Positions 1-58,034 of a stretch of 64,000 nt of DNA are shown piece by piece. Position 1 is the first letter of the stretch; each line of letters begins with the position of its first letter. A model generated the notes under the pieces. That model was not told the DNA's origin. It saw only the letters and a list, made by a program, of their open reading frames with translations, and searched no databases. The translations under genes and the position numbers were made by a program. This stretch comes from Brachionus manjavacas (taxonomy: Eukaryota; Rotifera; Eurotatoria; Ploima; Brachionidae), in the NCBI GenBank assembly GCA_019054805.1, contig JAHQIY010000008.1, positions 2,589,501-2,653,500 of the forward strand, read 5' to 3'.

Positions 1-3000
1 AGGCAGTTTAAAAGATAAATGAATTTTAGAATCTAGAGAAAAAAGGCTGTGAATTCTCTCAATTTTAATTTTATATCATTCCTGGTTCATCATTTTTTCT
101 AAATAATTTTTATAACAAAATAAACAAAAGATTTTTGGCCGCCTGTTATGAATGAAGCACATTGTTGCATTGAAAATCATTAAAAAAAAAGAGAAATTTT
201 ATATTATTTGTCTATTTTCTTGATACTTTTATTCAAAATTTAAAAAAAGCTTTCTAAAATTCTTTAAAACAATATGATTCTAAATTTTTTTAAGGGAATA
301 GATTAAGCAAGTATGAGTTAGATTCGTGTCAGATGGAAAATGAAAAATTACAGAATGAAGGTAAATTAAATTAAAAAAATTAGAGAACAATTATATGTAT
401 TCTAAAATTTTAAAAACAAGTCATTTTTTATTATCAGTATCTTACCTTTTTTCTTATCATTTTGAGAACAATCTATGTCGCAGGTAGGGTAAATTAATTG
501 CCCAGAGAAAACTAAATTGAAAAGGCAGTTTAAAAGATAAATGAATTTTAGAATCTAGAGAAAAAAGGCTGTGAATTCTCTCAATTTTAATTTTATATCA
601 TTCCTGGTTCATCATTTTTTTCTAAATAATTTTTATAACAAAATAAACAAAAGATTTTTGGCCACCTGTTATGAATGAAGCACATTGTTGCATTGAAAAT
701 CATTAAAAAAAAAGAGAAATTTTATATTATTTGTCTATTTTCTTGATACTTTTATTCAAAATTTAAAAAAGCTTTCTAAAATACTTTAAAACAATATGAT
801 TCTAAATTTTTTTAAGGGAATAGATTAAGCAAGTATGAGTTAGATTCGTGTCAGATGGAAAATGAAAAATTACAGAATGAAGGTAAATTAAATTAAAAAA
901 TTAGAGAACAATTATATGTATTCTAAAATTTTAAAAAACAAGTCATTTTTTATTATCAGTATCTTACCTTTTTTCTTATCATTTTGAGAACAATCTATGT
1001 CGCAGGTAGGGTAAATTAATTGCCCAGAGAAAACTAAATTGAAAAGGCAGTTTAAAAGATAAATGAATTTTTAGAATCTAGAGAAAAAAGGCTGTGAATT
1101 CTCTCAATTTTAATTTTATATCATTCCTGGTTCATCATTTTTTTCTAAATAATTTTTATAACAAAATAAACAAAAGATTTTTGGCCGCCTGTTATGAATG
1201 AAGCACATTGTTGCATTGAAAATCATTAAAAAAAAAAAGAGAAATTTTATATTATTTGTCAATTTTCTTGATACTTTTATTCAAAATTTAAAAAAAGCTT
1301 TCTAAAATTCTTTAAAACAATATGATTCTAAATTTTTTTTAAGGGAATAGATTAAGCAAGTATGAGATAGATTCGTGTCAGATGGAAAATGAAAAATTAC
1401 AGAATGAAGGTAAATTAAATTAAAAAAATTAGAGAACAATTATATGTATTCTAAAATTTTAAAAACAAGTCATTTTTTATTATCAGTATCTTACCTTTTT
1501 TCTTATCATTTTGAGAACAATCTATGTCGCAGGTAGGGTAAATTAATTGCCCAGAGAAAACTAAATTGAAAAGGCAGTTTAAAAGATAAATGAATTTTAG
1601 AATCTAGAGAAAAAAGGCTGTGAATTCTCTCAATTTTAATTTTATATCATTCCTGGTTCATCATTTTTTTCTAAATAATTTTTATAACAAAATAAACAAA
1701 AGATTTTTGGCCAACTGTTTTGAATGAAGCACATTGTTGCATTGAAAATCATTAAAAAAAAAGAGAAATTTTATATTATTTGTCTATTTTCTTGATACTT
1801 TTATTCAAAATTTAAAAAAAGCTTTCTAAAATTCTTTAAAACAATATGATTCTAAATTTTTTTAAGGGAATAGATTAAGCAAGTATGAGTTAGATTCGTG
1901 TCAGATGGAAAATGAAAAATTACAGAATGAAGGTAAATTAAATTAAAAAAAATTAGAGAACAATTATATGTATTCTAAAATTTTAAAAACAAGTCATTTT
2001 TTATTATCAGTATCTTACCTTTTTCTTATCATTTTGAGAACAATCTATGTCGCAGGTAGGGTAAATTAATTGCCCAGAGAAAACTAAATTGAAAAGGCAG
2101 TTTAAAAGATAAATGAATTTTAGAATCTAGAGAAAAAAGGCTGTGAATTCTCTCAATTTTAATTTTATATCATTCTTGGTTCTTCATTTTTTTCTAAATA
2201 ATTTTTATAACAAAATAAACAAAAGATTTTTGGCCACCTGTTATGAATGAAGCACATTGTTGCATTGAAAATCATTAAAAAAAAAAGTAAAATTTTATAT
2301 TATTTGTCTATTTTCTTGATACTTTTATTCAAAATTTAAAAAAAGCTTTCTAAAATTCTTTAAAACAATATGATTCTAAATTTTTTTAAGGGAATAGATT
2401 AAGCAAGTATGAGTTAGATTCGTGTCAGATGGAAAATGAAAAATTACAGAATGAAGGTAAATTAAATTAAAAAAATTAGAGAACAATTATATGTATTCTA
2501 AAATTTTAAAAACAAGTCATTTTTTATTATCAGTATCTTACCTTTTTTCTTATCATTTTGAGAACAATCTATGTCGCAGGTAGGGTAAATTAATTGCCCA
2601 GAGAAAACTAAATTGAAAAGGCAGTTTAAAAGATAAATGAATTTTAGAATCTAGAGAAAAAAGGCTGTGAATTCTCTCAATTTTAATTTTATATCATTCT
2701 TGGTTCATCATTTTTTTCTAAATAATTTTTATAACAAAATAAACAAAAGATTTTTGGCCACCTGTTATGAATGAAGCACATTGTTGCATTGAAAATCATT
2801 AAAAAAAAAAGAGAAATTTTATATTATTTGTCTATTTTCTTGATACTTTTATTCAAAATTTTAAAAAAAGCTTTCTAAAATTCTTTAAAACAATATGATT
2901 CTAAATTTTTTTTAAGGGAATAGATTAAGCAAGTATGAGTTAGATTCGTGTCAGATGGAAAATGAAAAATTACAGAATGAAGGTAAATTAAATTAAAAAA

Positions 3001-4656
3001 ATTAGAGAACAATTATATGTATTCTAAAATTTTAAAAACAAGTCATTTTTTATTATCAGTATCTTACCTTTTTTCTTATCATTTTGAGAACAATCTATGT
3101 CGCAGGTAGGGTAAATTAATTGCCCAGAGAAAACTAAATTGAAAAGGCAGTTTAAAAGATAAATGAATTTTAGAATCTAGAGAAAAAAGGCTGTGAATTC
3201 TCTCAATTTTAATTTTATATCATTCCTGGTTCATCATTTTTTTCTAAATAATTTTTATAACAAAATAAACAAAAGATTTTTGGCCGCCTGTTATGAATGA
3301 AGCACATTGTTGCATTGAAAATCATTAAAAAAAAAGAGAAATTTTATATTATTTGTCTATTTTCTTGATACTTTTATTCAAAATTTAAAAAAAGCTTTCT
3401 AAAATTCTTTAAAACAATATGATTCTAAATTTTTTTAAGGGAATAGATTAAGCAAGTATGAGTTAGATTCGTGTCAGATGGAAAATGAAAAATTACAGAA
3501 TGAAGGTAAATTAAATTAAAAAAATTAGAGAACAATTATATGTATTCTAAAATTTTAAAAACAAGTCATTTTTTATTATCAGTATCTTACCTTTTTTCTT
3601 TTCATTTTGAGAACAATCTATGTCGCAGGTAGGGTAAATTAATTGCCCAGAGAAAACTAAATTGAAAAGGCAGTTTAAAAGATAAATGAATTTTAGAATC
3701 TAGAGAAAAAGGCTGTGAATTCTCTCAATTTTAATTTTATATCATTCTTGGTTCATCATTTTTTTCTAAATAATTTTTATAACAAAATAAACAAAAGATT
3801 TTTGGCCACCTGTTATGAATGAAGCACATTGTTGCATTGAAAATCATTAAAAAAAAAGAGAAATTTTATATTATTTGTCTATTTTCTTGATACTTTTATT
3901 CAAAATTTAAAAAAAGCTTTCTAAAATTCTTTAAAACAATATGATTCTAAATTTTTTTAAGGGAATAGATTAAGCAAGTATGAGATAGATTCGTGTCAGA
4001 TGGAAAATGAAAAATTACAGAATGAAGGTAAATTAAATTAAAAAAATTAGAGAACAATTATATGTATTCTAAAATTTTAAAAACAAGTCATTTTTTATTA
4101 TCAGTATCTTACCTTTTTTCTTATCATTTTGAGAACAATCTATGTCGCAGGTAGGGTAAATTAATTGCCCAGAGAAAACTAAATTGAAAAGGCAGTTTAA
4201 AAGATAAATGAATTTTAGAATCTAGAGAAAAAAGGCTGTGAATTCTCTCAATTTTAATTTTATATCATTCCTGGTTCATCATTTTTTTCTAAATAATTTT
4301 TATAACAAAATAAACAAAAGATTTTTGGCCGCCTGTTATGAATGAAGCACATTGTTGCATTGAAAATCATTAAAAAAAAAAAGAGAAATTTTATATTATT
4401 TGTCTATTTTCTTGATACTTTTATTCAAAATTTTAAAAAAAGCTTTCTAAAATTCTTTAAAACAATATGATTCTAAATTTTTTTTAAGGGAATAGATTAA
4501 GCAAGTATGAGATAGATTCGTGTCAGATGGAAAATGAAAAATTACAGAATGAAGGTAAATTAAATTAAAAAAATTAGAGAACAATTATATGTATTCTAAA
4601 ATTTTAAAAACAAGTCATTTTTTATTATCAGTATCTTACCTTTTTTCTTATCATTT
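1..4656 (+). repeat. Tandem array of ~523-bp exon-bearing units, left part
   Basis: Nearly identical units of 522-527 bp start (at the aggcagttta motif) near 1, 523, 1045, 1572, 2095, 2619, 3145, 3668 and 4190. The last is cut by a LINE. Differences are mostly lengths of A or T runs plus a few substitutions, such as gccgcc/gccacc/gccaac and tgtctatt/tgtcaatt. Every unit contains one 66-nt segment bounded by a tttttttaag acceptor and a gaag|gtaaat donor. These mini-exons are at 295-360, 817-882, 1344-1409, 1867-1932, 2391-2456, 2917-2982, 3440-3505, 3962-4027 and 4489-4554. The array is already in progress at base 1, so its true left end is outside the window. Confidence 0.97.
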
Positions 4657-7600
4657 AATTAATTGTAAAATTGAAATTGAAAAGAACACACCAAAATATA
4701 AGCACACGTAAGCCAAAAGTAAGAAAAAAAAGCACAAGTAAGCCAAAATAAAATAAAAAGCACGCAGTTTTTGTCAAATGGACTCAAATTTTTTCTTGAA
4801 ACAAACTGGCCAACGTTTGGACAGGGAACCGTATCTGGGCATTCAAAAACTTTGCATGAATGGTGCGGTAATATTTCGAAATTCGTCCTGGAGCTTTCAA
4901 ATCATGTGAAACATCTAGAGGAAAGAGAAATTGAGAAAGACATTGAAATAAACAAACTGAAATCTGAATTGGCAGCAGCAAATAAAACAGCAAACTCATC
5001 CAACATCAGTAGTCAGTGGGTTCAAGTTGTAAAACAAGGGACAAAAAATGCAAAAACCAGCCGACCAGATAGCTGTAGCAAATGCAACCATCAGCGAAAT
5101 GAATGAAAGAATCAAAAGAAAAAAATGTGATCATTTATGGTGTGCCAGAATCAAAGAAAGAGATTCTAACAGACAGGAGGGCAGAAGATGAAGAAAAAAT
5201 CAAACAAATTTTGACCACTATTGGGAAAGGTGATGTCAAGCCAGCGTATTCAAGACGCTTGAGATCGAAAGACCAAAGTAAACCAGGCCCAATTCTAGTA
5301 GAACTCAAAGAAGAAGCAAACAGAAATCCACTACTACTAGCAGCCAAAAAGTTGCGAGATTCAAATAATTTCAAATCTATTTATCTTAGTCCAGATTTGA
5401 CTGAAACCGAAAGAGCTTTAGACTATGAATTGAGGAAACAAAGAAACGAAGCAAATAATGGTCTTTCACAAGACTCGCCCTTTCGATATGGCATCCGTGG
5501 AAATCAGATCGTCAAATTCAAGAAGCAATAATCGTTCATCAAAAGCGTCATCACGTGTGGATAATCTCGAATCTTTAAAATGTATGTATTTAAATGCTAC
5601 TTCCTTGGACAATAAACTTGATGAATTCAGTGTTGTTATTGAAACATATAGCCCACAAATTGTGGCAGTTAGTGAGACTTGGTTTAAGAGCAACTCAAAT
5701 GCAAACATTAAAGGATACAATTTGTACAGAAAGGACAGAAGTGATGGACGCAGAGGCGGGGGTGTATGTCTCTACATTGATGAAAATATCGATTCATTTG
5801 AATTAAATGATGCAGGTTTTAATTTAAGTAAAATAGAACAAATTTGGGTAGTTGTTAACTTTAACTGTGAAAAGTATTTAGTTGGCTGTCTTTACAGGCC
5901 AAACGATTTTGTTGATATGAACGATTTTGATTTAGTCTTCAAACAAGCTAAAGACTATGTGGATGAAAGAGGTTTTAAGGATATTCTAATAATGGGTGAC
6001 TTTAACTTTCCATCAATCATCTGGTCAAATGGCTGTGTTTCAGAAATCTTAAACGAAAATGGCATTGAACATAAATTCAGCGAAACGCTAAGCGACACTT
6101 TTTATATCAGCATGTAAATATTCCTACATTTCAAATGTCAAACGAAAAAGCTGTCAACACTTTGGATTTGATTTTCACGACTCAGTCTGGCAGTGTGTAT
6201 GCAATCGATACAAAATTTGTGCTTGGTAACATTAATAAAGGACATCTGGTTATCTTTTTCAATTTTGTACTCAAAAACAAGGTTAGTAAGGAATCATATA
6301 TTATTGAAAAATTTCTTTATAGTAAAGCTGACTTTGAAAAAATTTCTGATTTTTTATCAAATATTGATTGGGTGCACTTATTTGAGAATTTAAATATTCA
6401 GGAAATGTACAATGAGTTTATTTTCTATGTCAGCGAAGCTAGTAATCGATTCATTCCAGTAACGGATGGCTCTAAAAAGAAAAGTATCTCAAAACCTTGG
6501 ATAAAAGATGATCTCAAGATCTTAATTAGGAATAAGAAAAATCTAAGATACAGGAACTGTTCATGTAACTGGAAGGATATGAATCTTTATAATGATTACA
6601 AAAGTATCTGTAAATTAGTTTCTTCGGAAATAAAAAGAGCCAGACTCACTTATGAACAAAATTTAGTAGATAAAGCTAAGAAGAATCCAAAATTATTATA
6701 CAAATATCTAAATGATCAACAAGTAATCAGAGAATCAATCAAAGCATTAAAGAAGTCAAACAATGAATTAACGCAAGAACCGAAAGAGATATCAAATCTA
6801 CTAAATAAATGTTTTCAAGATGTTTTTGTTATTGAACAAGATGGGGAGCTTCCACCTTTTGTAGCTGAACTAAATGAAAACTGTTCAGAATATATTGACA
6901 TTGAACCAAATGATATTAGTTATGAAGTGGTTTATAAAAAATTACAAGACCTTAATCAAAATAAATCATGTGGTGTAGACAAGCTTCATCCGCTATTGCT
7001 AAAAAACTGTGCAGAAGCCTTTACTGTTCCTTTAACTTTAATTTTCAGAAAGTCTTTATCTAATAGTCAGCTTCCAATACAATTCAGATCAGCAAATATT
7101 ACTCCATTGTTTAAAAAAGGTGATAAATCAACGGCCAGCAATTATCGTCCCGTGTCTTTAACTTCAATTCCGTGCAAAATAATGGAAAGCATAATAAGAA
7201 CCAAAATGGAAGACTATCTTTATAAGAACAATATTATATCTAAAGAACAGCATGGATTTGTCAGGAAAAAGTCATGTACATCTAATCTTATGGAAACTCT
7301 AGATTTCATCTCAATGAGTCTAGACAAAAGTATTCCTGTTGATGTAATTCTGCTAGATTTTGCGAAAGCATTTGATACTGTTCCGCACAGACGACTAATA
7401 GCTAAATTGAAAGCGTATGGCTTTGATGGTCTGACACTAAAATGGATTGAAGCTTTCTTGAAAAATAGAAGACAACGAGTTGTTCAAGGTGAAATTTTGT
7501 CGGATTGGGTTGAGATTTTTAGCGGTGTACCACAAGGATCAGTGATTGGTCCACTTTTGTTCGTTTTGTATATCAATGATCTACCAAAAGGAATAGAGAA

Positions 7601-10600
7601 TATTGTCAAAATGTATGCAGATGATACAAAAATATTCTCGCAAACGGTATCAGAAATATGCGCAGTGAAAATTCAATCAGATTTAGATTTAATTTTCAAG
7701 TGGACTCAAGATTGGCTTCTTCTCTTCAACACATCAAAATGTGTGGTTATGCATTACGGTCATAAAAACAAAGAATTCACTTATTCTATTAATGGTAAAC
7801 AGTTATCAACGTCTGAAACCGAAAGAGATCTTGGAGTTATCTTCAATACAAATCTCAAATGGAAAAACCAAGTGATAGAGGCTACAAACAAAGCAAATCA
7901 AATGTTGGGTCGCATCAGGAAATCATTCGCTCGTTTTGATTGTAAGTTATTTAGATCATTGTATTTAACTTTTGTTCGTCCTCTTTTGGAATTTGCTGTG
8001 CCTGTATGGTCTCCATTTCTTAAGTCGGATTGTGAGAATCTTGAGAGGATTCAACGCAGAGCTACGAAATTTGTTTCTTCAATTAGAAACAAACCGTATG
8101 AAAGCAGATTGAAGGCTTTAAACATTCCAAATCTGGTGGAAAGAAGAAAAAGAGGTGATCTAATTCAATTATACAAGTTCATGCATGGAATAGAATTGGT
8201 TGAAAAAAGCAACAATTTTAATGTCACCAAAATCCAAGGAAGAGGTCACTGCTTCAAATATCACAAAGAAATTTCGAGGCTCCAACATAGAGATAACTCT
8301 TTTTTCAACAGAACCGCTAACATATGGAACTCACTGCCAAATCAATTAGTTGAAGCCCCTAATGTTAACAGCTTTAAAGCAGGCATTGATTGTTGGATGA
8401 GCAGCAATCAATCACATCAGCTGTCATAGTGTGCCTTATCAGCACACTCGCTGGCTAGCCAGCTACAGTCAAAACTACTACTACTACTATTTTGAGAACA
8501 ATCTATGTCGCAGGTAGGGTAAATTAATTGCCCAGAGAAAACTAAATTGAAAAGGCAGTTTAAAAGATAAATGAATTTTAGAATCTAGAGAAAAAAGGCT
8601 GTGAATTCTCTCAATTTTAATTTTATATCATTCTTGGTTCTTCATTTTTTCTAAATAATTTTTATAACAAAATAAACAAAAGATTTTTGGCCAACTGTTA
8701 TGAATGAAGCACATTGTTGCATTGAAAATCATTAAAAAAAAGAGAAATTTTATATTATTTGTCTATTTTCTTGATACTTTTATTCAAAATTTAAAAAAAG
8801 CTTTCTAAAATTCTTTAAAACAATATGATTCTAAATTTTTTTAAGGGAATAGATTAAGCAAGTATGAGTTAGATTCGTGTCAGATGGAAAATGAAAAATT
8901 ACAGAATGAAGGTAAATTAAATTAAAAAAATTAGAGAACAATTATATGTATTCTAAAATTTCAAAAAACGAGTCATTTTTTATTTGCAGTATCTTACCTT
9001 TTTTCTTATCATTTTGAGAACAATCTATGTCGCAGGTAGGGTAAATTAATTGCCCAGAGAAAACTAAATTGAAAAGGCAGTTTAAAAGATAAATGAATTT
9101 TAGAATCTAGAGAAAAAAGGCTGTGAATTCTCTCAATTTTAATTTTATATCATTCTTGGTTCTTCATTTTTTTCTAAATAATTTTTATAACAAAATAAAC
9201 AAAAGATTTTTGGCCGCCTGTTATGAATGAAGCACATTGTTGCATTGAAAATCATTATAAAAAAAGAGAAATTTTATATTATTTGTCAATTTTCTTGATA
9301 CTTTTATTCAAAATTTAAAAAAAGCTTTCTAAAATTCTTTAAAACAATATGATTCTAAATTTTTTTAAGGGAATAGATTAAGCAAGTATGAGTTAGATTC
9401 GTGTCAGATGGAAAATGAAAAATTACAGAATGAAGGTAAATTAAATTAAAAAAATTAGAGAACAATTATATGTATTCTAAAATTTTAAAAACAAGTCATT
9501 TTTTATTATCAGTATCTTACCTTTTTTCTTATCATTTTGAGAACAATCTATGTCGCAGGTAGGGTAAATTAATTGCCCAGAGAAAACTAAATTGAAAAGG
9601 CAGTTTAAAAGATAAATGAATTTTAGAATCTAGAGAAAAAGGCTGTGAATTCTCTCAATTTTAATTTTATATCATTCTTGGTTCATCATTTTTTTCTAAA
9701 TAATTTTTATAACAAAATAAACAAAAGATTTTTGGCCGCCTGTTATGAATGAAGCACATTGTTGCATTGAAAATCATTAAAAAAAAAAAAGAGAAATTTT
9801 ATATTATTTGTCTATTTTCTTGATACTTTTATTCAAAATTTAAAAAAAGCTTTCTAAAATTCTTTAAAACAATATGATTCTAAATTTTTTTAAGGGAATA
9901 GATTAAGCAAGTATGAGTTAGATTCGTGTCAGATGGAAAATGAAAAATTACAGAATGAAGGTAAATTAAATTAAAAAAATTAGAGAACAATTATATGTAT
10001 TCTAAAATTTTAAAAACAAGTCATTTTTTATTATCAGTATCTTACCTTTTTTCTTTTCATTTTGAGAACAATCTATGTCGCAGGTAGGGTAAATTAATTG
10101 CCCAGAGAAAACTAAATTGAAAAGGCAGTTTAAAAGATAAATGAATTTTAGAATCTAGAGAAAAAAGGCTGTGAATTCTCTCAATTTTAATTTTATATCA
10201 TTCTTGGTTCATCATTTTTTTCTAAATAATTTTTATAACAAAATAAACAAAAGATTTTTGGCCACCTGTTATGAATGAAGCACATTGTTGCATTGAAAAT
10301 CATTAAAAAAAAAGAGAAATTTTATATTATTTGTCAATTTTCTTGATACTTTTATTCAAAATTTAAAAAAAGCTTTCTAAAATTCTTTAAAACAATATGA
10401 TTCTAAATTTTTTTTAAGGGAATAGATTAAGCAAGTATGAGTTAGATTCGTGTCAGATGGAAAATGAAAAATTACAGAATGAAGGTAAATTAAATTAAAA
10501 AAATTAGAGAACAATTATATGTATTCTAAAATTTTAAAAACAAGTCATTTTTTATTATCAGTATCTTACCTTTTTTCTTATCATTTTGAGAACAATCTAT

Positions 10601-13600
10601 GTCGCAGGTAGGGTAAATTAATTGCCCAGAGAAAACTAAATTGAAAAGGCAGTTTAAAAGATAAATGAATTTTAGAATCTAGAGAAAAAAGGCTGTGAAT
10701 TCTCTCAATTTTAATTTTATATCATTCTTGGTTCTTCATTTTTTTCTAAATAATTTTTATAACAAAATAAACAAAAGATTTTTGGCCACCTGTTATGAAT
10801 GAAGCACATTGTTGCATTGAAAATCATTAAAAAAAAGAGAAATTTTATATTATTTGTCAATTTTCTTGATACTTTTATTCAAAATTTAAAAAAGCTTTCT
10901 AAAATTCTTTAAAACAATATGATTCTAAATTTTTTTTAAGGGAATAGATTAAGCAAGTATGAGGTAGATTCGTGTCAGATGGAAAATGAAAAATTACAGA
11001 ATGAAGGTAAATTAAATTAAAAAAATTAGAGAACGATTATATGTATTCTAAAATTTTAAAAACAAGTCATTTTTTATTATCAGTATCTTACCTTTTTTCT
11101 TATCATTTTGAGAACAATCTATGTCGCAGGTAGGGTAAATTTATTGCCCAGAGAAAACTAAATTTAAAAGGCAGTTTAAAAGATAAATGAATTTTAGAAT
11201 CTAGAGAAAAAAGGCTGTGAATTCTCTCAATTTTAATTTTATATCATTCTTGGTTCATCATTTTTTTCTAAATAATTTTTATAACAAAATAAACAAAAGA
11301 TTTTTGGCCACCTGTTATGAATGAAGCACATTGTTGCATTGAAAATCATTAAAAAAAAAGAGAAATTTTATATTATTTGTCAATTTTCTTGATACTTTTA
11401 TTCAAAATTTAAAAAAAGCTTTCTAAAATTCTTTAAAACAATATGATTCTAAATTTTTTTTAAGGGAATAGATTAAGCAAGTATGAGTTAGATTCGTGTC
11501 AGATGGAAAATGAAAAATTACAGAATGAAGGTAAATTAAATTAAAAAAATTAGAGAACAATTATATGTATTCTAAAATTTTAAAAACAAGTCATTTTTTA
11601 TTATCAGTATCTTACCTTTTTTCTTATCATTTTGAGAACAATCTATGTCGCAGGTAGGGTAAATTAATTGCCCAGAGAAAACTAAATTGAAAAGGCAGTT
11701 TAAAAGATAAATGAATTTTAGAATCTAGAGAAAAAAGGCTGTGAATTCTCTCAATTTTAATTTTATATCATTCTTGGTTCTTCATTTTTTTCTAAATAAT
11801 TTTTATAACAAAATAAACAAAAGATTTTTGGCCACCTGTTATGAATGAAGCACATTGTTGCATTGAAAATCATTAAAAAAAAAGAGAAATTTTATATTAT
11901 TTGTCTATTTTCTTGATACTTTTATTCAAAATTTAAAAAAGCTTTCTAAAATTCTTTAAAACAATATGATTCTAAATTTTTTTAAGGGAATAGATTAAGC
12001 AAGTATGAGTTAGATTCGTGTCAGATGGAAAATGAAAAATTACAGAATGAAGGTAAATTAAATTAAAAAAATTAGAGAACAATTATATGTATTCTAAAAT
12101 TTTAAAAACAAGTCATTTTTTATTATCAGTATCTTACCTTTTTTCTTATCATTTTGAGAACAATCTATGTCGCAGGTAGGGTAAATTAATTGCCCAGAGA
12201 AAACTAAATTGAAAAGGCAGTTTAAAAGATAAATGAATTTTAGAATCTAGAGAAAAAAGGCTGTGAATTCTCTCAATTTTAATTTTATATCATTCTTGGT
12301 TCTTCATTTTTTTCTAAATAATTTTTATAACAAAATAAACAAAAGATTTTTGGCCACCTGTTATGAATGAAGCACATTGTTGCATTGAAAATCATTAAAA
12401 AAAAAGAGAAATTTTATATTATTTGTCAATTTTCTTGATACTTTTATTCAAAATTTAAAAAAAGCTTTCTAAAATTCTTTAAAACAATATGATTCTAAAT
12501 TTTTTTTAAGGGAATAGATTAAGCAAGTATGAGTTAGATTCGTGTCAGATGGAAAATGAAAAATTACAGAATGAAGGTAAATTAAATTAAAAAAATTAGA
12601 GAACAATTATATGTATTCTAAAATTTTAAAAACAAGTCATTTTTTATTATCAGTATCTTACCTTTTTTCTTATCATTTTGAGAACAATCTATGTCGCAGG
12701 TAGGGTAAATTTATTGCCCAGAGAAAACTAAATTTAAAAGGCAGTTTAAAAGATAAATGAATTTTAGAATCTAGAGAAAAAAGGCTGTGAATTCTCTCAA
12801 TTTTAATTTTATATCATTCTTGGTTCATCATTTTTTTCTAAATAATTTTTATAACAAAATAAACAAAAGATTTTTGGCCACCTGTTATGAATGAAGCACA
12901 TTGTTGCATTGAAAATCATTAAAAAAAAAGAGAAATTTTATATTATTTGTCAATTTTCTTGATACTTTTATTCAAAATTTAAAAAAAGCTTTCTAAAATT
13001 CTTTAAAACAATATGATTCTAAATTTTTTTTAAGGGAATAGATTAAGCAAGTATGAGTTAGATTCGTGTCAGATGGAAAATGAAAAATTACAGAATGAAG
13101 GTAAATTAAATTAAAAAAATTAGAGAACAATTATATGTATTCTAAAATTTTAAAAACAAGTCATTTTTTATTATCAGTATCTTACCTTTTTTCTTATCAT
13201 TTTGAGAACAATCTATGTCGCAGGTAGGGTAAATTAATTGCCCAGAGAAAACTAAATTGAAAAGGCAGTTTAAAAGATAAATGAATTTTAGAATCTAGAG
13301 AAAAAAGGCTGTGAATTCTCTCAATTTTAATTTTATATCATTTATTTTATAAAATTCTTTAAAACAATATGATTCTAAATTTTTTTTAAGGCAATAGATA
13401 AAGCAAGTATGAGTTAGATTCGTGTCAGATTGAAAATGAAAAATTACAGAATGAAGGTAAATTAATTAAATAAATTGAATTTATAATATATATTTAATAA
13501 CAATTTAGCTGAAAAAATAGCTGACAAAATTCAAAGCCTTGAAAATCAAATTAAGATTTTCCTCGAGCAGGAGAGGTATTTCGAGATTGAAAATCAAATG

Positions 13601-13663
13601 CTTACCAAAGATATAGAGTTATGTCGAAGCTCTTATGATCCTCAAAAGAGTCAGCTTTTATGA
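295..13663 (+). CDS. Putative coiled-coil gene with ~19 tandem 22-residue mini-exons (3' part)
   Basis: Not recognised as a known family. Seen: 19 copies of a 66-nt exon (nine left of the LINE; then 8846-8911, 9370-9435, 9895-9960, 10419-10484, 10941-11006, 11465-11530, 11987-12052, 12511-12576, 13035-13100, 13391-13456), then a 52-bp intron and a terminal exon at 13509-13663 ending in TGA. Each mini-exon starts with two bases and ends with one base of a codon (phase 1-1), so any number can be joined without changing frame. The terminal exon is open in exactly that phase. The unit reads N-R-L-S-K-Y-E-L-D-S-C-Q-M-E-N-E-K-L-Q-N-E plus a junction Gly; the tail is Lys/Glu/Gln-rich. Both look like coiled coil, and 22 residues equals two hendecads. 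Copy 19 carries TAA in place of TTA, so full inclusion would truncate the protein. The 5' exons lie outside the window. Expression is inference; a satellite that captured an exon is the alternative. Confidence 0.5.
4771..5531 (+). CDS. LINE ORF1 nucleic-acid-binding protein, frame-broken
   Basis: ORF1 proteins of this LINE group bind element RNA. The first frame (4771-5106) has a heptad-rich helix (residues about 45-70, rich in Glu/Lys/Leu). The second piece (5103-5531) has the RRM-like core (NVIIYGVPESKK), the RLR...KPGPILVEL segment and the PDLTETERALDYELRKQR C-terminal block. Between them a third frame, about 5,045-5,120, reads DQIAVANATISEMNERIKRK, which aligns in style with the ORF1 of the second LINE at 61 kb. 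Protein continuity therefore needs two one-base shifts, both at A-runs (5043-5048 and 5117-5127). The first ORF opens with TTG, so the true ATG is uncertain. Confidence 0.8.
5458..8429 (+). CDS. LINE ORF2: APE endonuclease and reverse transcriptase
   Basis: The multidomain replicase nicks target DNA and copies element RNA. The N-terminal endonuclease (5458 to about 6,270) shows YLNATSLDNKL, SETWF, GGGVCLYI, YRPN and MGDFNFP. The usual catalytic SDH triplet reads KGH here, so the essential Asp appears lost. The reverse transcriptase in the second piece (6135-8429) shows NYRPVSLTS, LLDFAKAFDTVPH, GVPQGSVIGPLLF and the YADD catalytic box, then the RDLGVIF...LKWKNQ and RRATKFV C-terminal blocks typical of CR1/L2-like LINEs. 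The two pieces are joined by one missing T in the run at 6099-6103: the first frame stops at 6117, while the shifted frame continues through HVNIPTFQ into 6135. It overlaps ORF1 by about 74 nt. Confidence 0.93.
8427..8488 (+). other. LINE 3' UTR: two hairpins and (ACT)n tail
   Basis: Directly after the ORF2 stop there is a 6-bp stem, GTGTGC (8429-8434) and GCACAC (8442-8447), with a 7-nt loop. A perfect 12-base palindrome CTGGCTAGCCAG follows (8451-8462), then an (ACT)n run to 8488. Reverse transcriptases of CR1/L2-type LINEs recognise structured 3' ends followed by short microsatellite tails, so this is the likely template-recognition end. A related stem and (ACT)n tail closes the LINE at 62.6 kb. 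Confidence 0.75.
8489..13457 (+). repeat. Tandem array of ~523-bp exon-bearing units, right part
   Basis: The array continues after the LINE with unit starts near 8553, 9075, 9598, 10123, 10647, 11169, 11693, 12215, 12739 and 13263. The variants tttattgccc and aatttaaaag occur in the unit joints near 11140-11170 and 12711-12740, three units (1,570 bp) apart, which suggests a local three-unit higher-order duplication. The last unit lost about 255 bp of intron (joint near 13340), retains a shortened acceptor region and a mini-exon (13391-13456), and then leaves the array. Confidence 0.96.
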
Positions 13664-14830: not shown

Positions 14831-16149
14831 ATGTTCATAAAAATCTGAAAAGATTCCTTCAATCAAAAAATTGAAAAAAAATAAAAAAATTTTATATGAT
14901 GATTTTTAGATGATTTTTTAATGAATCTTTAAATGAAATCTAAATGAAATTGAGTCCAATATCTTTAAAGAATCATTACAAATTTTCCTCATGAAATCTT
15001 TAAAGAATCACTAAAATTGGGTTGACTGGGGAAGTGAGAATCTTCTCTTAATTCCAACTATTTTCCTTGGAAGATAATTGTTTATCAACAATTTGGTCGG
15101 TATTTTTGAGTTTTCTTATTATTGGTAAATACCAACTGAAGGATTAAAAATATTGCACTTTAATCATTTTTTTGAGATAAAATTTTTTCATTAATGATAT
15201 TGTCAAATTTAAACAAATAATAATATTTTCGAGGCTAAAGTTTTCTATTTTTGTGTGAATATTCAAATTTTATACTTTAAAAAAATTCTTCCGTGCTCAT
15301 ATTGCGATCACGATTAGTATTTTCATTAATCTGAAAACCAATTTGGGTGAGATTATTAAAAACAGTGAAAAATTTGAATCATAGATTTCCCATTCCTGAC
15401 ATTTTGATGTAGACTGTGAATTGTCTATGGAATTTTGTATAGATTCGCTTATGTTGTACCATGGGTTTAAATTAATGTAGTGCAAAAATTTACTTACATG
15501 TATAAATTTGGATATCATTTAAACCTGAAACACAATTGTTCGATTGATTTTCGTTCTTTTAGACTGGTATTTGATGGGATAATGGACAAGTTGGGCGAGC
15601 ATGTAAAAATCGGGTCAAAAAAAATCATATGAACAAAAAATCGGGTGTGTAAAAATCTGATTTATAATTAAATAAAAATTAGCTAATTGAGTTTGATAAA
15701 TTTTTTATTGATAAAATTATAATATATCATTAATATAATAAAAAAATATTAGGAATTGATAATATAATTAGATTGCTACAAATGTGGTTTTTTTTCGCCA
15801 ATATTTAAAGTTTCCGATTTAAAATTAGAAAGATAAGAAGTTTTAATGTACATGCTATGATTTTCATGCTATCGTTTTTATTTCTAATTTGTATCATTAT
15901 TTTTGTCTTACATTTTAATTTTACATTTTTTAATTTTAATTTTTTCGAATTAACGTTCCTTTTTATTTTAATAATTTTATTTTTAGGTAATAAGTATTAT
16001 TTTTCATTTTTTAAAAAAACAAAAAAACACAAAAAAATTTATTTTTTATCTCTTTTTTAGTTTTTTACTTCTCCTTAAAGGAAGCTAATTCAATTCAATA
16101 AATAAAAAAAAAGGGCAGAATTGGTCCTAAATAAAAAAAAAATAATTTA
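14831..16149. other. AT-rich non-coding stretch
   Basis: I see no supportable gene. The open frames at 15297-15518 (minus) and 15857-16060 (plus) are low-complexity Phe/Ile/Lys-rich translations. At about 16062-16105 a TTTTAC...TCCTTA..AGGA...TAATTCA...AATAAA pattern resembles the 3' terminus of the LINE relics at 43,425-43,465 and 48,885-48,925, so a LINE 3' end may sit here. Confidence 0.4.
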
Positions 16150-16325
16150 AAACCTTGGACAAATCTTAAATTTGTAAGGGTCTATTTTCAGTGACAAATC
16201 ATAAGCATAAGCTAAAGCCAATAAACCACAGTCGTTGTCACCATCTTTTTCAGCAACTTAGGCTATTTGAACTGTAAGTACCGAACGTTCTGGGTTCTCA
16301 TGTCCAAAAAGTCCAAGTTCACTTA
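16150..16325 (-). pseudogene. Fossil of an Ulp1-like (C48) cysteine protease active-site segment
   Basis: Reading the minus strand from about 16,290, one frame gives V-Q-I-A-stop-V-A-E-K-D-G, then DNDCGLLALAYAYDLSL, then KIDPYKFKI. A G-x-x-DCG-L-x-ALAYA stretch is the catalytic-Cys region of Ulp1/SENP-type proteases, which many animal transposons carry. There is an internal stop and no upstream His or Asp motifs could be found, so this is a decayed transposon fragment rather than a gene. Assignment rests on one short motif. Confidence 0.5.
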
Positions 16326-16899
16326 AAATTTTTGATATAATTTTTAATTATTCATTTTAATTTAAGTCAATTTACAGGAAGTACTTTACTTGATAAATAT
16401 TTTAAAGTCTTTTAAGTTTAATGAGAACTTTTCCCGAAAGATGAGAACTATTTTCGGTTTTTGTTATTATGAGATTAATTTAAATTAATTAGAAAAAATT
16501 TTAAATTAAAAAATTCTTTTTATGGTCTCTAAAAGGACGGCTCGCTATTTCAACTCGTATGAATATTTTAAATAATAAGAACCTTCGTTTAATTTCTGAT
16601 ATAAATATTACTAGGACTGGTGTTTTATTAAGAAATTCTAATTTTTCATTAAAAGTAATAGTAATTTCAATATTTTCTTACTTCCATTTGGCGTAATTCA
16701 TATCGGGCATAGAAATCATTTCTATTGAATGACGAAAAAGTTTTTCGTCATTTTTTTTTATCAAGTCCAAGTTCGTTAGTAATTAATGTAGTACATTGTT
16801 GGATTGAAAATAATAATTATAAAAAAGAAGAAATTTCATAAAATTCGTATTATTTCTCGTTGCTTTAATTCAAAATAAAAAAAATAAAACTAGAATTTT

Positions 16900-17312
16900 T
16901 GAAACAAAATGATCTAAATAAATTGGAAATTATTTTTTTTAAGGAAAAAGATAATCCAGATACGAGTTGGATTCGTGGCAGAAAGAAAATGAAAAATTAC
17001 TGAATGATTTTTCCACAAAGAGATCAAAAGAATTCTGAATAGAGGTAAAAATATCTTTACCAACCTGAATCAATATATCCTTTTCTGTAATTTTAACACA
17101 AAAGATGAATTTTAAATTTTTTGAAAAAATAATTATCTTTTAAATATTTTTCGACCACAATTAACTAATGGCTGACAAAATTTAAAGCCTTGAAAATCAA
17201 ATTAAGATTTTACTCGAGCAGGAGAGGTATTTCGAGATTAAAAATCCAATCCTCACCAAGGATCTAGAGTTATTTCGAAGTGCTAATGATCCTCAAAAGA
17301 AACAGCTTTTAT
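16900..17312 (+). pseudogene. Degenerate copy of the coiled-coil gene 3' end
   Basis: This is a second, more diverged copy of mini-exon plus terminal exon. About 16,945-17,010 reads R-Y-E-L-D-S-W-Q-K-E-N-E-K-L-L-N-D after an in-frame TAA. The terminal exon (about 17,165-17,312) keeps IFTRAA-scale similarity to 13509-13663 at the base level, but has TAA where the intact copy has CAA early in the exon, and other changes follow. The normal gtaaat donor is lost (gattttt). It is a pseudogene copy. Confidence 0.75.
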
Positions 17313-17380
17313 AATTTTTTATTTTATTTTATTATTTTTTGTATTTTTTGACTTTATTTCGATTAAATAATTAAAGATAG

Positions 17381-17635
17381 GGAAGCACGGCTTTATAATA
17401 TCGAGTAACGAGGCGTTAACTTTCAACTTTAATGTTATGTTTTATTTGCATGTTTATTATAATCTATTAGTTTCGAAAAAGTAAAAAATAACATGTAATT
17501 TGTCAATTAATGTGTATACTCTATTGACGATTTACGCCAAGAATTTTTTTAAAACTGTTCCACATACGATTTTTCTACGTGTCCGTGTCTGCTTAATCAG
17601 CTCGTCACGCGACCGCTCGTTCCTCGCAAAAAATT
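17381..17635. mobile_element. ~255-bp insertion with ATTAAA flanks in the duplicated 3' flank
   Basis: The surrounding copy of the coiled-coil gene 3' flank should read through attaaa into gaatttatta (compare 20,990-21,005). Here the two halves are separated by an unrelated and locally G+C-richer segment beginning gatagggaagcacggc and ending ccgctcgttcctcgcaaaaa. ATTAAA is present on both sides (about 17,375-17,380 and 17,630-17,637), consistent with a short target duplication. There is no ORF and no clear terminal inverted repeat. A related start (gggaagca.rgctttt...atcg) lies at 57,740. The superfamily is unknown. Confidence 0.55.
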
Positions 17636-17639
17636 AAAG

Positions 17640-19030
17640 AATTTATTATTTCTTTGTATCAAAATTCATGTCAAGCACATACTTAGGAGACGCACTGTCC
17701 AACTCTGACTAAAACGTCGTTTTCAAATGTTTTAAAAAAAAATAAATTATACATCCTATAATACTAAATCGTCTTAGGCAATTCTCGTAGACTGATGGCG
17801 GTCCAATTTTGTCACCTTTAAACAAATCAAAATAAAAAAAAAATTTTGTCGCCTTTTGATTACTTTTTCTCCGGTAGAAATTGAATTTATAGCAAAATTG
17901 ATATTTTAATCAATAAAGGAAATTTTTTTTAAAATGCTTTAAGAATTAAAATATTTTTGAATAAAGAATAATTTTCAGAAAAATAAATAATTATGAAATT
18001 TTTTTCAATAAAGCTTCTAAATTCTTATCCAGTTTTTAGGTCGTACGAAAAAGAAAAGGAAAAAAAAAAGAAAAAAAAAATAGGAAAATTAAGATACCAT
18101 TGAATCCTCGATTTGCCTTGTTTCAAAAATTTTGTTTCTAAACTGAATTTCGTTCGGTCGAAACCATCGAAAGAAAGAATAAATTTGAAATTTGAAAAAC
18201 GAAATATGCAAATGAATGGTAAAGTTGTTTAGTGAATGAAACAAACCAGTCTTGATTGCAAATTAAAACGTAAAACATTTTTTTTTTTTTGGTCGTGAGT
18301 GTCGATTTCAATCAAAAATAATTATTTACTGCTATAGCTTGTAAAAGCTTAACCCTTTTTTGGGTCTCAGTATTTTTTACTGACACTACTACTATCTTGG
18401 AGAGGAAACAAAATTATCATAATTTTTTACAGTTTTTTAATTAATTGGTTCTCAAACGACTGTTTTTGCTTGATTTTGCCTATTCAAATTAAAGTTTCGA
18501 ACTTAAATATTTAAAAATGTTTAATATTTTTTTAAACATTTTGACATAAAAAAATTTAAAAAAAAATGTTTCAAAAAATTTCATTCCTACAATGAATGAA
18601 GGGTTTCGTATGGTGACGAATCAGACAAGGAAAAAACTCTGACTTGGTTGTGAAATTTTTTGTAACTTTCACAAACTGCGCCATGCTTAATAATCTGCAC
18701 ATTAGGGTAAATTATAAAGATAAACAAAGTGCCACTGCGTACCCTCCGCGACTTATTTATCCATGTAATTTACAAAATTATTTCATGATGTATTAGCTGA
18801 TTAAAAATTTAAAAACTTGATGAAAAATTTTAATTTAGTCATGATTAAAAACACATTTTAAATATATCATAACTAATAAGACTTTTTTAAAAGTTAATAA
18901 AAAGACTGTTTTTGCTAGCTTTTGCCTATTAAAAAAAGAATTCGAACTTAAACATTTCAAAATATTTAATATTTTTTTATCTATTTTGACATAACAAATT
19001 TCAAAAAAATGTTTCAAAAGTTTTAATTCC
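17640..19030. other. Non-coding stretch with internal repeat
   Basis: No gene is supported. Two direct, diverged copies of a segment beginning gactgtttttgct and ending cctacaatgaat lie at about 18,457-18,597 and 18,903-19,037. Their reverse complement resembles 14,205-14,262 and 20,410-20,465. These are further pieces of the shuffled zone between the exon array and TCP11L1. Confidence 0.6.
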
Positions 19031-19033
19031 TAC

Positions 19034-19240
19034 AATGAATAAAGAAATGTTTACTGGGAATCGCTTGTGGACAAGTCCGACCGTGGCGAATTCTGAGAAG
19101 GACTTGAAGACAAAAAGGATAGAAATGGATTGGGGCTCTCAGAGCGTTACTTAGACTCGGAAGATTTATCGTTGTTTTCCATGTTGAGAGCAAAATATAA
19201 AAAACTATTTTTAACAAAGCTAGTTGAAATACAAAAAAAA
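19034..19240 (-). pseudogene. Inverted partial copy of TCP11L1 exon 1 with stop codon
   Basis: The minus strand from about 19,240 down to 19,050 matches the TCP11L1 5' UTR and first exon (21,690-21,870), including the ATG and the residues MENNDKSSESK. The codon after that Lys is TAA instead of AAA, and the reading breaks away near 19,050. It is therefore a truncated, inverted, disabled duplicate lying 2.5 kb upstream of the real gene. Confidence 0.85.
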
Positions 19241-19429
19241 TTAGATAAATTCAAAGATTATTAAAGATTAATAAGCATATTTTCTATTATTAAGCTGTGT
19301 AAATTTTTATTTTTAGGAATGAAAATTTTTGTTTTATTTTAGTTTGATATCTATCGTTGACTCTAAATGAAAAAATTAACTTTTTAAAATATTTGAAAAT
19401 TTCAAATACTCAAAGTCTAGAAGCAGCGT

Positions 19430-20157
19430 CAGCTATTTTTTCGGCTAAATTGTTATTAAATATATTAAAAATTCAATTTATTTAATTAAATTTACCTTCA
19501 TTCTGTAATTTTTCATTTTCCATCTGACACGAATCTAATTCATACTTGTCTAATCTATTTCCTTAAAAAAAATTTTTAAAAAAAATATTTTGAATCATTT
19601 TGTTTTAAAAAATTTTAGAAAGCTTTTTTAAATTTTGAATAAAAAAATCAAGAAAATTGACAAATAATATAAAATTTCTCTTTTTTTTTAATGATTTTCA
19701 ATGCAACAATGTGCTTCATTCATAACAGGTGGCCAAAAATCTTTTGTTTATTTTGTTATAAAAATTATTTAGAAAAAAATGATGAACCAAGAATGATATA
19801 AAATTAAAATTGAGAGAATTCACAGCCTTTTTTCTCTAGATTCTAAAATTCATTTATCTTTTAAACTGCCTTTTCAATTTAGTTTTCTCTGGGCAATTAA
19901 TTTACCCTACCTGCGACATAGATTGTTCTCAAAATGATAAGAAAAAAGGTAAGATACTGATAATAAAAAATGACTTGTTTTTAAAATTTTAGAATACATA
20001 TAATTGTTCTCTAATTTCTTTAATTAAATTTACCTTCATTCTGTAATTTTTCATTTTCCATCTGACACGAATCTAACTCGTATTTGAGTCTGGTAGCATT
20101 TGATTCGATTTCTTGAGAATGTTTATATTGAGGTATTAAAGCACATTCCTCCGATTA
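19430..20157 (-). pseudogene. Inverted copy of one array unit with two coiled-coil exons
   Basis: The minus strand shows an exon (about 20157-20034) that reads, near its end, A-T-R-L-K-Y-E-L-D-S-C-Q-M-E-N-E-K-L-Q-N-E and is preceded by sequence absent from the array (SEECALIPQYKHSQEIESN). Then comes one satellite-type intron and an intact 66-nt mini-exon (19561-19496) with a proper donor. Finally the start of the terminal exon (from about 19,444) breaks off after A-D near 19,430. This piece shows what the single-copy gene looked like: upstream exon, one mini-exon, terminal exon. The array is therefore an amplification of the mini-exon plus intron. Confidence 0.8.
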
Positions 20158-20513
20158 GAGCACAAAACAAAACAACAAATCCAATGATGTTGAAGACAGT
20201 TACAATACCAAAGCCTGAAATTTATAAGATTCAATAAATAATTTTTCAAAAAATTTTCAATGAAATAGCATCTGGTCCAGAAAACTTGAATATTTGTACA
20301 ATTTTTTTGAATATAGTGTGAGTTCTAGTTTTAAGCACTAAAATCACACTTTTAACTAGCAATTTTTCCCCGACATTTTTTTGAAATTTTTTAGTTAAAA
20401 TAGAAAAAAATATAAAACATTTTGAAATGTTTAAGTTCGAATTTTTTATTTAAATAGGCAAAAGTAAACATAAACAGTTGATTTACCTTTCTTTTTTATC
20501 TATATAATTTACA

Positions 20514-20935
20514 AAATCTAGCAAAAAAAATCATTAAAAAAAAAGAGAAATTTTATATTATTTTTCAATTTTCTTGATACTTTTATTCAAAATTTAAAAA
20601 AGCTTTCTAAAATTTTTTAAAACAAAATGATTCAAAATTTTTTTTTTTTAAATTTTTTTTAAGGAAATAGATTAGACAAGTATGAATTAGATTCGTGTCA
20701 GATGGAAAATGAAAAATTATAGAATGAAGGTAAATTTAATTAAATAAATTGAATTTTTAATATATTTAATAACAATTTAGCCGAAAAAATAGCTGACAAA
20801 ATTCAAAGCCTTGAAAATCAAATTAAGATTTTCCTCGAGCAGGAGAGGTATTTCGAGATTGAAAATCAAATGCTCACCAAGGATCTAGAGTTATGTCGAA
20901 GCGCTAATGATCCTCAAAAGAGTCAGCTTTTATGA
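20514..20935 (+). pseudogene. Third copy of coiled-coil mini-exon plus terminal exon
   Basis: A part of the unit intron is followed by a 66-nt mini-exon at 20664-20729, a 51-bp intron, and a terminal exon at 20781-20935 with the same length and stop as 13509-13663. The terminal exon is open and ends QKSQLL. In the mini-exon the conserved CAG (Gln) near its end is TAG, a nonsense change. Both splice sites are intact. Either a disabled duplicate or a gene that skips this exon; the phase-symmetric exon would permit skipping. Confidence 0.7.
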
Positions 20936-21607: not shown

Positions 21608-21738
21608 TATCTTCTTAGATATTATAATTAAGCAAAAAAATTCAATCTGGTTACGTAACCTTTGCATTTATCTAATTGTAGATTTTTGTATTTCAACTAG
21701 CTTTGTAAAAAAATAGTTTTTTATATTTTGCTCTCAAC

Positions 21739-24700
21739 ATGGAAAACAACGATAAATCTTCCGAGTCTAAGAAACGCTCTGAGAGCCCCAATCCATTTCT
21801 TTCCTTTTTGTCTTCAAGTCCTTCTCAGAATTCGCCACGGTCGGACTTGTCCACAAGCGATTCCCAGTCGCCCAGGTCACCAAGACAAAATGGAATAAAA
21901 ATACCTTTAGCTTCAGGTGCTTCTGTGTCCCAATCAATGCTCACTGCAGGTAAAAACACTTTTTGTTCTTCTTAAATCTAAAAATTAAATCAAAACGTTT
22001 TCAGCATCGCCGCCGCGCTTTGCAACCATTGAGCAATTCATGAACGCTTCCAATACTGTCCAGAACATGGCGCTAGCTCATGAAATCTCTGTCAACCAAA
22101 ATTTCAAGTTTGAAAAGTTGGAATATGAAACAAACAGCTTGGAAAAACAAATACATGACACGGTTCACAAAGCTTTCTGGAATTCTTTGAGAGAAGACTT
22201 CGAAAAAGACCCAGTAGAGTACAAACATGCGTTCACAATACTAGGCGAGGCCAAACAGGCTTTGATGGGTCTTCTTTTGCCTAATCATGTCAAGTTTCGT
22301 GAACAGATAGACACTATTTTGGACATGGCGTTGATTAAACAACAAATGGATAATCAAACTTTTAATTATCGTGATTACGCTTTGTTTATCATTGAGACGA
22401 TGTCTAAGCTGTGTGCGCCAGCTAGAGATGCCAAAATAGAGTCTTTGAAAAGCTTGATTGACCCCGTCGAGCTGTTCAAAGGCATCATGGAGACTCTTGA
22501 GCTGTTGAAGTTGGACATGGCCAATTATACTATTCAACAGATGAGACCTTACATTCAGCAGCAAGTCGTGGCTTATGAGCAAAAAAAATTCAAAGAACTC
22601 TTGGAAACTCAGCAAGGTTTGAACTTTAGTCAATTTTATCTCCGCATTTTAGCATTAGATATTTGAAAATTTGAATTTTTTTTTCAAATTTTTTTATAAA
22701 AGGAAATTAAGAATTTGTTTAAGGCTTGAAAAAGGAAAACAATTTTTGAGATTAATTGAGCTGCTTGAGTGATTAAAAAAAGGAATTCTTCTGGTCTTTT
22801 GGTCTTTTATAAATTGTTGATTTTATTTTGCATTGGAATTTAAAATTCTTAAAAATTAAAGCTAGCACTTTTAAATTTTGTGCTAAAAAAATTCAAAATT
22901 TTGTCATAAATGCGCAAAAACTAGTTATGGAGTTTTCTCTATAGTTTAGTTAATTAAAACCAAGTTAACTGGTCAATTTTTTTTTTTTGAACTAAACTAA
23001 AATCAATAACTATACGAACATGAGAATTCAGCTCTGCTAAAATTGATTTATAATTTTCTTTTTTGAAGATCAATGAGCATTTCAATTTCGAACCAATCGA
23101 CTTTATTAAGCTTGGCAATTTTTTACACAAATTTTTTATTAAAAACATGAAAGCATATTTCTTCTCTTTCTTAACTTTTTTTTTAATATTTTATCAAATT
23201 TTATTACAGAAATATTATCAAGAAAAATTGATTATTTTTTAAATAATATTTTAATAATGAATATATTTTGAGAAAATGGTTTTGAGTAAATTTTTATTTT
23301 TAGGAATGAAAATTTTTGTGTTACTTAGCTTGAGAATCTGGTCAAATAAAATGTTTTTAGGAGATAAAATAAAATTATTAATTACGATTAAACTATTAAT
23401 ACTTATACAAAATAATTAAAAATGCAAAAAAAACGCATCAATCTAAATGATTTACAAAAACTAGATACAGGAGAATATCGGTTATATGGAATGAAAAATT
23501 ATGAGCGTTATCTAGTATTTTCTATAAAAAAATTAGGTTTTATTTTTAATTAAGGCTTTATTTAAATTTATTAAAACAATTTAAAAAAGAAATAAATTCA
23601 TTTAATTTTAGTAATTGTAATTGAGCTTGGAGCAGTTTTAAAGCTTAGCTGTCTAGATACATGACTTTCATTATTATTTACATTTGGTTGAGCCTTGAAA
23701 TATTTCATTTTATATTTTATTATATGATGGTCCCTTTTCTATCCTAGCCGATAATGGAGCGACGCTCATCTCCTTTTCCAGTACCTTTTTTGGTTGACAC
23801 AGAGTTTACCGTATCGAGTTGATCATCTACACCGCAATTTTTGAGATCAATTGAGAAAAAACTTAAAGAAATAAAAAGAAAAAAAGGATTGAAATGTAAA
23901 AGCAGTTTTCTACATTCAGTAATTACACAGATTTTTTGAATCAAGTTTTTTCTTCAACAATTCTTTTCATTAATTGATGGTTATTAATAGGAAATTGTAA
24001 ATCTGTCAAAAAAAATAGTTTAGCTTTTTTCACACTTTAATTTATCGTTTTTTTATTTCAAAGTTTCAAATGAAATTTGAGAGATCTTGTTTGTTTTTTG
24101 AGTGTAGTTTGTAGTTGGGGGCTATGTCTCTTTTCAGAGAGACTCACATAACTAAATTGAAATTGTTGACCAAAGGCTTTTGAACAAAACGATTCATTTT
24201 ATTTTCCAAATTGTATTTAACACTAAAACATTATGAAATCTTTATAACTAATAACTTTTTTTACTTTATTAGTTCAATTTCTGATTTTTATATGCTTGCG
24301 CCTAATTCTTGGAATAAAAAAATTTTCTTAATTCTAAAATACTTTCTCGTTCTCCAGACAAAAAATAAAAATAAATAAATTACTTAAAAAATCTTTTTTT
24401 TGCCTCTTTTTCGAACATAGTGACATGTTACTTTAGTCGAAAAAGGTCAAAATGAAAGCCTGCATACAATACATAGGAACATGTCACAAAAATCGAGTGA
24501 TTACGTTAGTTTATTAAATTTTTTACTAATAATTAGTTAAATTAACAAAGTAGAAAAATTCATTAAAAAAATTTTGACAAAAAATTTTGCCACATTTTCT
24601 CAAAAATTTGTTTCCAAAAGCTTTTTAAATTAAAAAAATTAAAGTCTTTGAATAAAAATAAACTTAAAATGCGGAAAAATTAAAAAGATTAAAAGTTGAC

Positions 24701-32519: not shown

Positions 32520-32818
32520 GCCGGGAGGGGCGGCGCTCTCTTGTAATCTAGCTACTTGGAGGCCGGATTTGCGGGATTGTTTACATGTGGGAGTCCTGGC
32601 TATCGTTGTGCTATGTTGAACAGACGTCCGCACCAAGCTCGGCATCAATATGCGTGACTTTGGAGGAGTTCAGAGTCACCAGGTTGCCTAAGGAGGAGGG
32701 AACCGGTCCAGAGCCGAAAGGCAGCAGATCAAACCTCCCGTGTCGAGCAGTAGTGGGATAGCGTTTGTGAATAGTCAGCGGTAGACAGCCCATATTGTAA
32801 GTGAGACTCAAGTCTTTT
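32520..32818 (+). ncRNA. 7SL RNA (signal recognition particle RNA), copy A
   Basis: The RNA scaffold of the cytoplasmic SRP. It begins GCCGGGAGGGGCGGCGC and runs about 298 nt, like the human 299-nt RNA. Conserved landmarks in order: TCCGCACCAAGCTCGGCATC (Alu-domain side), ACCAGGTTGCCTAAGGAGG, the helix 8 loop with a GCC-GAAA-GGC tetraloop followed by AGCAG, and CAGTAGTGGGATAGCG (the SRP54-binding symmetric and asymmetric loops), then TGTGAATAG. It ends at an oligo-T polymerase III terminator (32814-32818). It differs from copies B and C by gagttcaga versus gagtccaga. The tRNA-like unit upstream may supply promoter boxes. Confidence 0.96.
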
Positions 32819-45731: not shown

Positions 45732-45739
45732 ATATTTTT

Positions 45740-58025: not shown

Positions 58026-58034
58026 ACTTATATC

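Follow-up and report, generated by a model that had tools for sequence, protein, structure and literature searches.

The window analyzed here, a 64,000-nucleotide stretch of the Brachionus manjavacas genome (C8:2589501-2653500), opens inside a tandem array whose units carry an exon-like segment of 66 nt together with its splice signals. This raises the question of whether these mini-exons are parts of a working gene, one that encodes a coiled-coil rod of variable length as a sequence-only reading of the window had proposed, or the remains of a gene carried along in satellite DNA. We conclude that the array is quite probably a young, single-locus satellite, grown by unequal exchange from a broken coiled-coil gene.

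A single head-to-tail array of exon-bearing units

The array is represented in the window by the following features.

1..13342 (+), window part of the satellite array, with units of 520-527 bp
295..360 (+), first of the mini-exons that lie in the window (66 nt, phase 1-1), GNRLSKYELDSCQMENEKLQNE; 18 of these are open, this one included
13035..13100 (+), last open mini-exon of the homogenized array

A scan of the window and of 40 kb upstream reveals 62 copies of the mini-exon, arranged head to tail from C8:2567323 to C8:2602891. Nineteen of these lie in the window (starts at 295, 817, 1344, 1867, 2391, 2917, 3440, 3962, 4489, 8846, 9370, 9895, 10419, 10941, 11465, 11987, 12511, 13035, and 13391), which is the number originally counted; the array of 295..13663 described at that time is real within the window but incomplete, since 43 more copies reach 22 kb further upstream. 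Successive mini-exon starts lie 520-527 bp apart in all but two of the 61 intervals, in keeping with the unit of ~523 bp first proposed, and the two aberrant intervals measure 4357 bp (with a LINE within) and 356 bp (a truncated unit). This regularity is far beyond chance. The array as a whole is ~36 kb long and begins abruptly near C8:2567038, 22 kb ahead of window base 1 and inside a segment that is 86% identical to window 17628-17992. A relative of the same gene, in decayed form, lies beside this start, and the search there turned up no upstream exon.

We searched the genome (114 Mb, 61 contigs) with the unit and its mini-exon, and all 40 matches scored, which are the best 40 of 66 candidates, fall at C8:2567155-2602608. 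The sequence-only reading had allowed that the unit might be dispersed elsewhere as ordinary satellite; no full unit away from the locus is present among the matches scored. Pairs of units differ by a mean of 3.6 substitutions, and adjacent units are more similar, with a mean difference of 3.1 at lag 1 versus 3.9 at lag 30 (none of 2000 permutations reached so low a value), a gradient that is as expected under continued unequal exchange. Two marks of satellite DNA, head-to-tail units of high identity and local homogenization, are both found here, and the earlier phrase "a satellite made of exons" is apt for a unit that consists of an exon-like segment and its intron, derived from a probable former coiled-coil gene.

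The introns of the units harbor two further features.

446..672 (+), intron stretch, recurring in each unit, that matches, at 68-84% identity, the terminal part of an old family of dispersed repeats
4655..8491 (+), retrotransposon of the LINE type that contains a reverse transcriptase domain and has an ACT repeat at its end (approximate limits)

The LINE is inserted in the intron of one array unit, which it splits. The repeat makes up ~225 bp of the intron, and, of the 42 matches listed, 32 put it elsewhere, at the identity given above. A candidate explanation in which the whole unit, exon included, forms a dispersed repeat family was rejected: alignments at ~64% do cross the mini-exon, yet the mini-exon part reaches only 51-63%, and a shuffled sequence control gives 66-68%, above the values seen (5 loci of 16 fetched, 32 listed). 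Because the mini-exon is outside the repeat family in the 5 loci tested, the dispersed matches correspond to the repeat and not to the satellite.

A fragment of a dispersed repeat in each unit, in a large homogenized single array between two recognized genes (dynein and Tcp11) that are transcribed away from it, might point to a non-coding function, for instance in the production of small RNAs or in forming heterochromatin locally, in which case the exon-like part would be irrelevant. However, nothing sets the array apart from inert satellite DNA, and we consider such a role unlikely.

The mini-exon and its reading frame

TTTAAG precedes and GTAAAT follows the mini-exon in 62 of 62 copies, which bears out the acceptor and donor initially noted. 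The phase symmetry and the 22-residue length hold as well, in that the segment is phase 1-1 and the repeat reads GNRLSKYELDSCQMENEKLQNE in a frame that is kept whatever the number of units. Exactly this peptide is encoded by 28 of the 62 copies, while 22 carry V at one place, seven carry I there, four have other single or double changes, and one has a stop, such that 61 of the 62 are open. The G+C content of the exon is 0.318 versus 0.215 in the remainder of the unit.

The further proposal that the 22 residues form two hendecads is weak, as the 11-residue halves, compared by eye, lack any identical position. The 22-residue repeat alone shows hydrophobic periodicity at 3.667 with p = 0.12 versus composition shuffles, its strongest harmonic being 2.44, and for this reason a regular hendecad rod is only putative. 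In contrast to a hendecad pattern, the protein obtained by joining the terminal exon to exon A, an upstream exon described below, has a hydrophobic moment of 0.71 at 3.5 residues and of 0.17 at 3.667, which fits ordinary heptads.

Tandem units of ~500 bp with a short segment that ends in a donor are reminiscent of spliced-leader arrays. The array might on this basis be a tandem small-RNA gene, for example one for a spliced-leader RNA whose leader would be the 66-nt segment; however, an acceptor precedes this segment, which is also homologous to exon A. The sole Rfam match with E up to 1 (window 200-1500) is mir-684, with E 0.5 and 20 bits versus a gathering score of 100, and the bdelloid leader gives 0 matches at up to 3 mismatches. 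Furthermore, an EST survey detected no trans-spliced leader in Brachionus plicatilis (PMC1925144). On the Rfam, bdelloid leader, and EST evidence we reject a spliced-leader identity of the unit, and a small-RNA gene has, in our view, next to no chance of being the explanation.

A broken junction with the terminal exon

The downstream end of the array is formed by two exon-like segments.

13391..13456 (+), final mini-exon, adjoining the terminal exon; differs from the array consensus at three positions, with an in-frame TAA created by one of these changes
13509..13663 (+), terminal exon, open in phase 1, AEKIADKIQ...SQLL, ends TGA

As anticipated by the sequence-only reading, the array ends in a terminal exon of matching phase, which is open to its TGA and is followed downstream by AATAAA at 13720. 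The adjoining mini-exon translates as GNR*SKYEL..., and a transcript joined in silico from the array, 13391, and 13509 halts at this TAA. The frame stays open if the array is joined to 13509 with 13391 skipped, and only in this way is there an unbroken frame from array to 3' exon of the LPA KIV-2 type considered below.

A living gene would call for a distant or unrecognized 5' exon joined by splicing to all 61 open mini-exons or a subset of them, with the stop copy skipped, and its product would be a putative rod of up to ~1,340 residues (61 x 22) plus the terminal exon, the length of which would depend on unit number or exon skipping. The symmetric phase, the 61 open copies, the splice signals in 62 of 62, the exon G+C of 0.318 versus 0.215, and the frame that is open with 13391 skipped are all consistent with such a gene, whereas the stop in the last mini-exon, the failure of a weak test to find any 5' exon candidate within 5 kb, the presence of exon A at one place only, inverted and downstream, and an exon constraint that is not significant argue against it. 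We therefore judge a living gene very unlikely. It is a slim prospect indeed that the length of a coiled-coil rod follows directly from satellite expansion, with up to 61 exons of 66 nt spliced variably and the stop copy skipped; were the array spliced, it would represent an extreme exon-number array in an easily cultured animal.

Outlying copies of the same gene

Beyond the array, the window contains relatives of the mini-exon and of its neighboring exons in three places.

16944..17009 (+), decayed mini-exon relative, in-frame TAA (by eye)
17167..17313 (+), decayed terminal exon, internal TAA
19428..19445 (-), terminal exon of the inverted copy, cut short (ends approximate)
19496..19561 (-), open mini-exon belonging to the inverted copy
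20034..20160 (-), exon A, likewise from the inverted copy, SEECALIPQYKHSQEIESNATRLKYELDSCQMENEKLQNE; ends near 20160 at a duplication breakpoint
20664..20729 (+), mini-exon of a separate copy, in-frame TAG
20781..20935 (+), terminal exon of the separate copy, open

Exon A is the only upstream exon found, and its sole copy belongs to the inverted copy downstream of the array (window 19428-20160). In this copy, exon A and the mini-exon can both be read without a stop, but the terminal exon breaks off after ~18 nt. When the long intron of the inverted copy is aligned to that of the array, 8 of 457 aligned bases mismatch and 16 columns contain gaps. Over 67 bases, the 3' part of exon A is 96% identical to this copy's own mini-exon together with the beginning of the intron that follows it. 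The claim that neighboring copies preserve an ancestral layout of upstream exon, mini-exon, and terminal exon is thus upheld for exon A and the open mini-exon of the inverted copy, but not beyond this, as the terminal exon there is truncated, the copy at 20664 carries a TAG, and exon A occurs in the inverted copy only. Both decayed copies (one of them at 16944) have a TAA at the same codon as 13391, and four of the five mini-exons outside of the homogenized array are broken (exon A uncounted). We found no complete copy of the coiled-coil gene in this interval.

The surrounding locus

A 1.4-kb segment, 99.5% identical between its copies, flanks the array on both sides (C8:2561872-2563308 and window 15206-16643), which suggests a recent duplication across the locus. 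The 5'-end region of the Tcp11 gene is likewise present as an inverted copy of 95% identity, 19053-19260 (-) versus 21656-21868 (+), that adjoins the cluster of gene fragments. Further downstream, three full-length matches to SRP RNA lie within 17 kb (242-244 bits; 32520-32817 (+), 43739-44036 (-), and 49205-49502 (-)), interleaved with three matches of equal score to tRNA-Ala (CGC) at 34082, 41790, and 47534, a pattern that suggests a duplicated RNA gene segment. A probable short DNA transposon is found at 44663-45733, with inverted ends TTAGTGATGGG / CCCATCACTAA, which we take to resemble hAT ends, and many 15-bp TTTAGTCAACTAA-like units just within both ends. LINE-like fragments at 58028-60554 and 61895-62488 contain reverse-transcriptase-like frames by eye, and 59649-60551 matches an endonuclease family.

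Search for a 5' exon and a parent gene

The 5' exons that had been expected upstream of base 1 were not found beside the array. We defined a candidate as having an ATG start, phase 1, a length of at least 30 nt, and one of nine common donor hexamers, and obtained 0 candidates in the 5 kb before the first unit, a weak test because rough two-base-block shuffles yield just 1.7 candidates on average. The nearest recognized gene upstream encodes a dynein heavy chain and lies on the minus strand, opposite to the array; in the 10 kb nearest the array start, one of seven frames of at least 80 residues was compared with Pfam and gave no match. Trans-splicing is unlikely to supply the 5' end, because the EST survey of Brachionus plicatilis detected no leader (PMC1925144).

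No intact parent gene was found elsewhere in the genome searched, with all 69 matches (E up to 1) on C8 at this locus. A DNA search with the terminal exon gave six matches, all on C8, and exon A proper matches itself alone among the best 40 of 66 candidates scored. The joined protein of exon A and the terminal exon has 21 weak Pfam matches, all under the cut-offs, many of them to coiled-coil families; one of these, bZIP_1, was rejected as the family of the old gene, since the match has an E of 0.12 and is below cut-off.

Variation among units and older copies

To compare exon and intron, we used 59 units, without the three mini-exons that come before the LINE, before the truncated unit, and last, and set aside 25 gappy columns from the non-exon count. 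Variable sites amount to 4 of 66 in the exon (6%) versus 46 of 451 elsewhere in these units (10%; Fisher p = 0.38, low power), and no significant constraint on the exon relative to the intron is seen. All four variable exon sites change an amino acid, as would 147 of the 198 possible single changes. Diversity across the 59 units is 0.0112 in the exon versus 0.0063 in the remainder, the exon value being higher because of one common L/V/I site. Since just four exon sites vary, and a stop would result from 19 of the 198 possible single changes, 61 open frames of 62 are expected without selection too.

The last array copy and the copy at 20664 differ more in the mini-exon, at 7 of 66 positions, than in the non-coding flanks, at 6 of 232 (p = 0.011); in the terminal exon they differ at 6 of 155 positions. 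Older divergence in two chosen pairs, the array consensus versus the mini-exon at 19496 (-) and the two best terminal exons, comprises five silent and five amino acid changes over 36.7 and 182.3 sites, respectively, corresponding to a pN/pS of 0.20 (p = 0.014, small numbers). This divergence is partly silent, and a real coiled-coil gene therefore probably existed. In the five pairs of terminal exons with a decayed member, pN/pS ranges from 0.54 to 1.75. Taking old and recent divergence together, we read these patterns as those of a past coding constraint that was probably then lost. A gene at work today that encodes a length-variable rod, the main proposal of the sequence-only reading, is not supported, given the TAA in 13391, the 5' exon that a weak test did not find, and the lack of significant constraint.

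Origin of the array

For the satellite that we favor, the starting point would have been a small coiled-coil gene in which exon A was followed by a long intron, the mini-exon, a short intron, and the terminal exon. Given the near identity between the mini-exon and the 3' part of exon A, unequal exchange between them could have produced a unit that consists of the mini-exon and the long intron, and further unequal crossing-over, together with conversion, would have led to ~61 near-identical units, with the exon sequences carried along as fossils. The splice signals and open frame would then be intact because the array is young and homogenized, and not through selection. What we infer from the present arrangement is that crossing-over took this route, that the gene was once active, and that no product is made today.

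The locus would make the birth of a satellite readable, with the inverted copy holding the likely seed layout, and two near-identical exon segments in one gene account for a unit that is exactly one exon and one intron. It also follows that intact splice signals and an open, symmetric phase, even in almost all units, are not evidence for a gene where the units are young copies of each other.

Comparison with known systems

A limited search of the open-access literature found no described case of the same kind, whether as a tandem exon array or as a satellite derived from a gene; one paper that it brought up concerns homogenized silk genes of spiders. The exon-and-intron repeat of human LPA is a close point of comparison, and in LPA unique exons flank the repeat. 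The LPA kringle IV type 2 VNTR has a unit of 5.6 kb and 1-40 units per allele, with exon and intron together in tandem units as in the rotifer array (PMC11462820). LPA, however, is an expressed gene, whereas the rotifer units are only a tenth as long, the final exon of the series contains a stop, and the first exon was not found.

Within the Brachionus plicatilis complex, mmr-a and mmr-b are described as near-identical tandem coding repeats that undergo concerted evolution; these repeats are uninterrupted, number one to nine full repeats, and come with a signal peptide and a stop (PMC3495898, PMC2746195). In contrast, each exon of the array described here sits in an intron-bearing unit of 520 bp, and a complete gene is not seen. 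A published 26-nt Brachionus manjavacas mmr-b primer (PMC2746195) has an exact match on C7 and two one-mismatch places, with none for the reversed control. These places lie at C7:5017989-5124088, and one locus has a 261-bp tandem period with 2.9 copies; the published repeat length of mmr-b is 261 bp. On these grounds the genome analyzed is assigned to the Brachionus plicatilis complex.

Finally, tandem satellite DNA is known from the same genus as rotiSat1, rotiSat2, and rotiSat5 of Brachionus asplanchnoidis, with reported monomers of 154 and 143 bp for rotiSat1 and rotiSat2, respectively, and arrays of raised G+C that extend up to a few megabases (PMC8447722). The array characterized here is likewise tandem satellite DNA but differs from these in its 523-bp unit, its A+T-rich composition, its confinement to one 36-kb locus, and its derivation from a gene, the last of which is probable on the evidence presented above.
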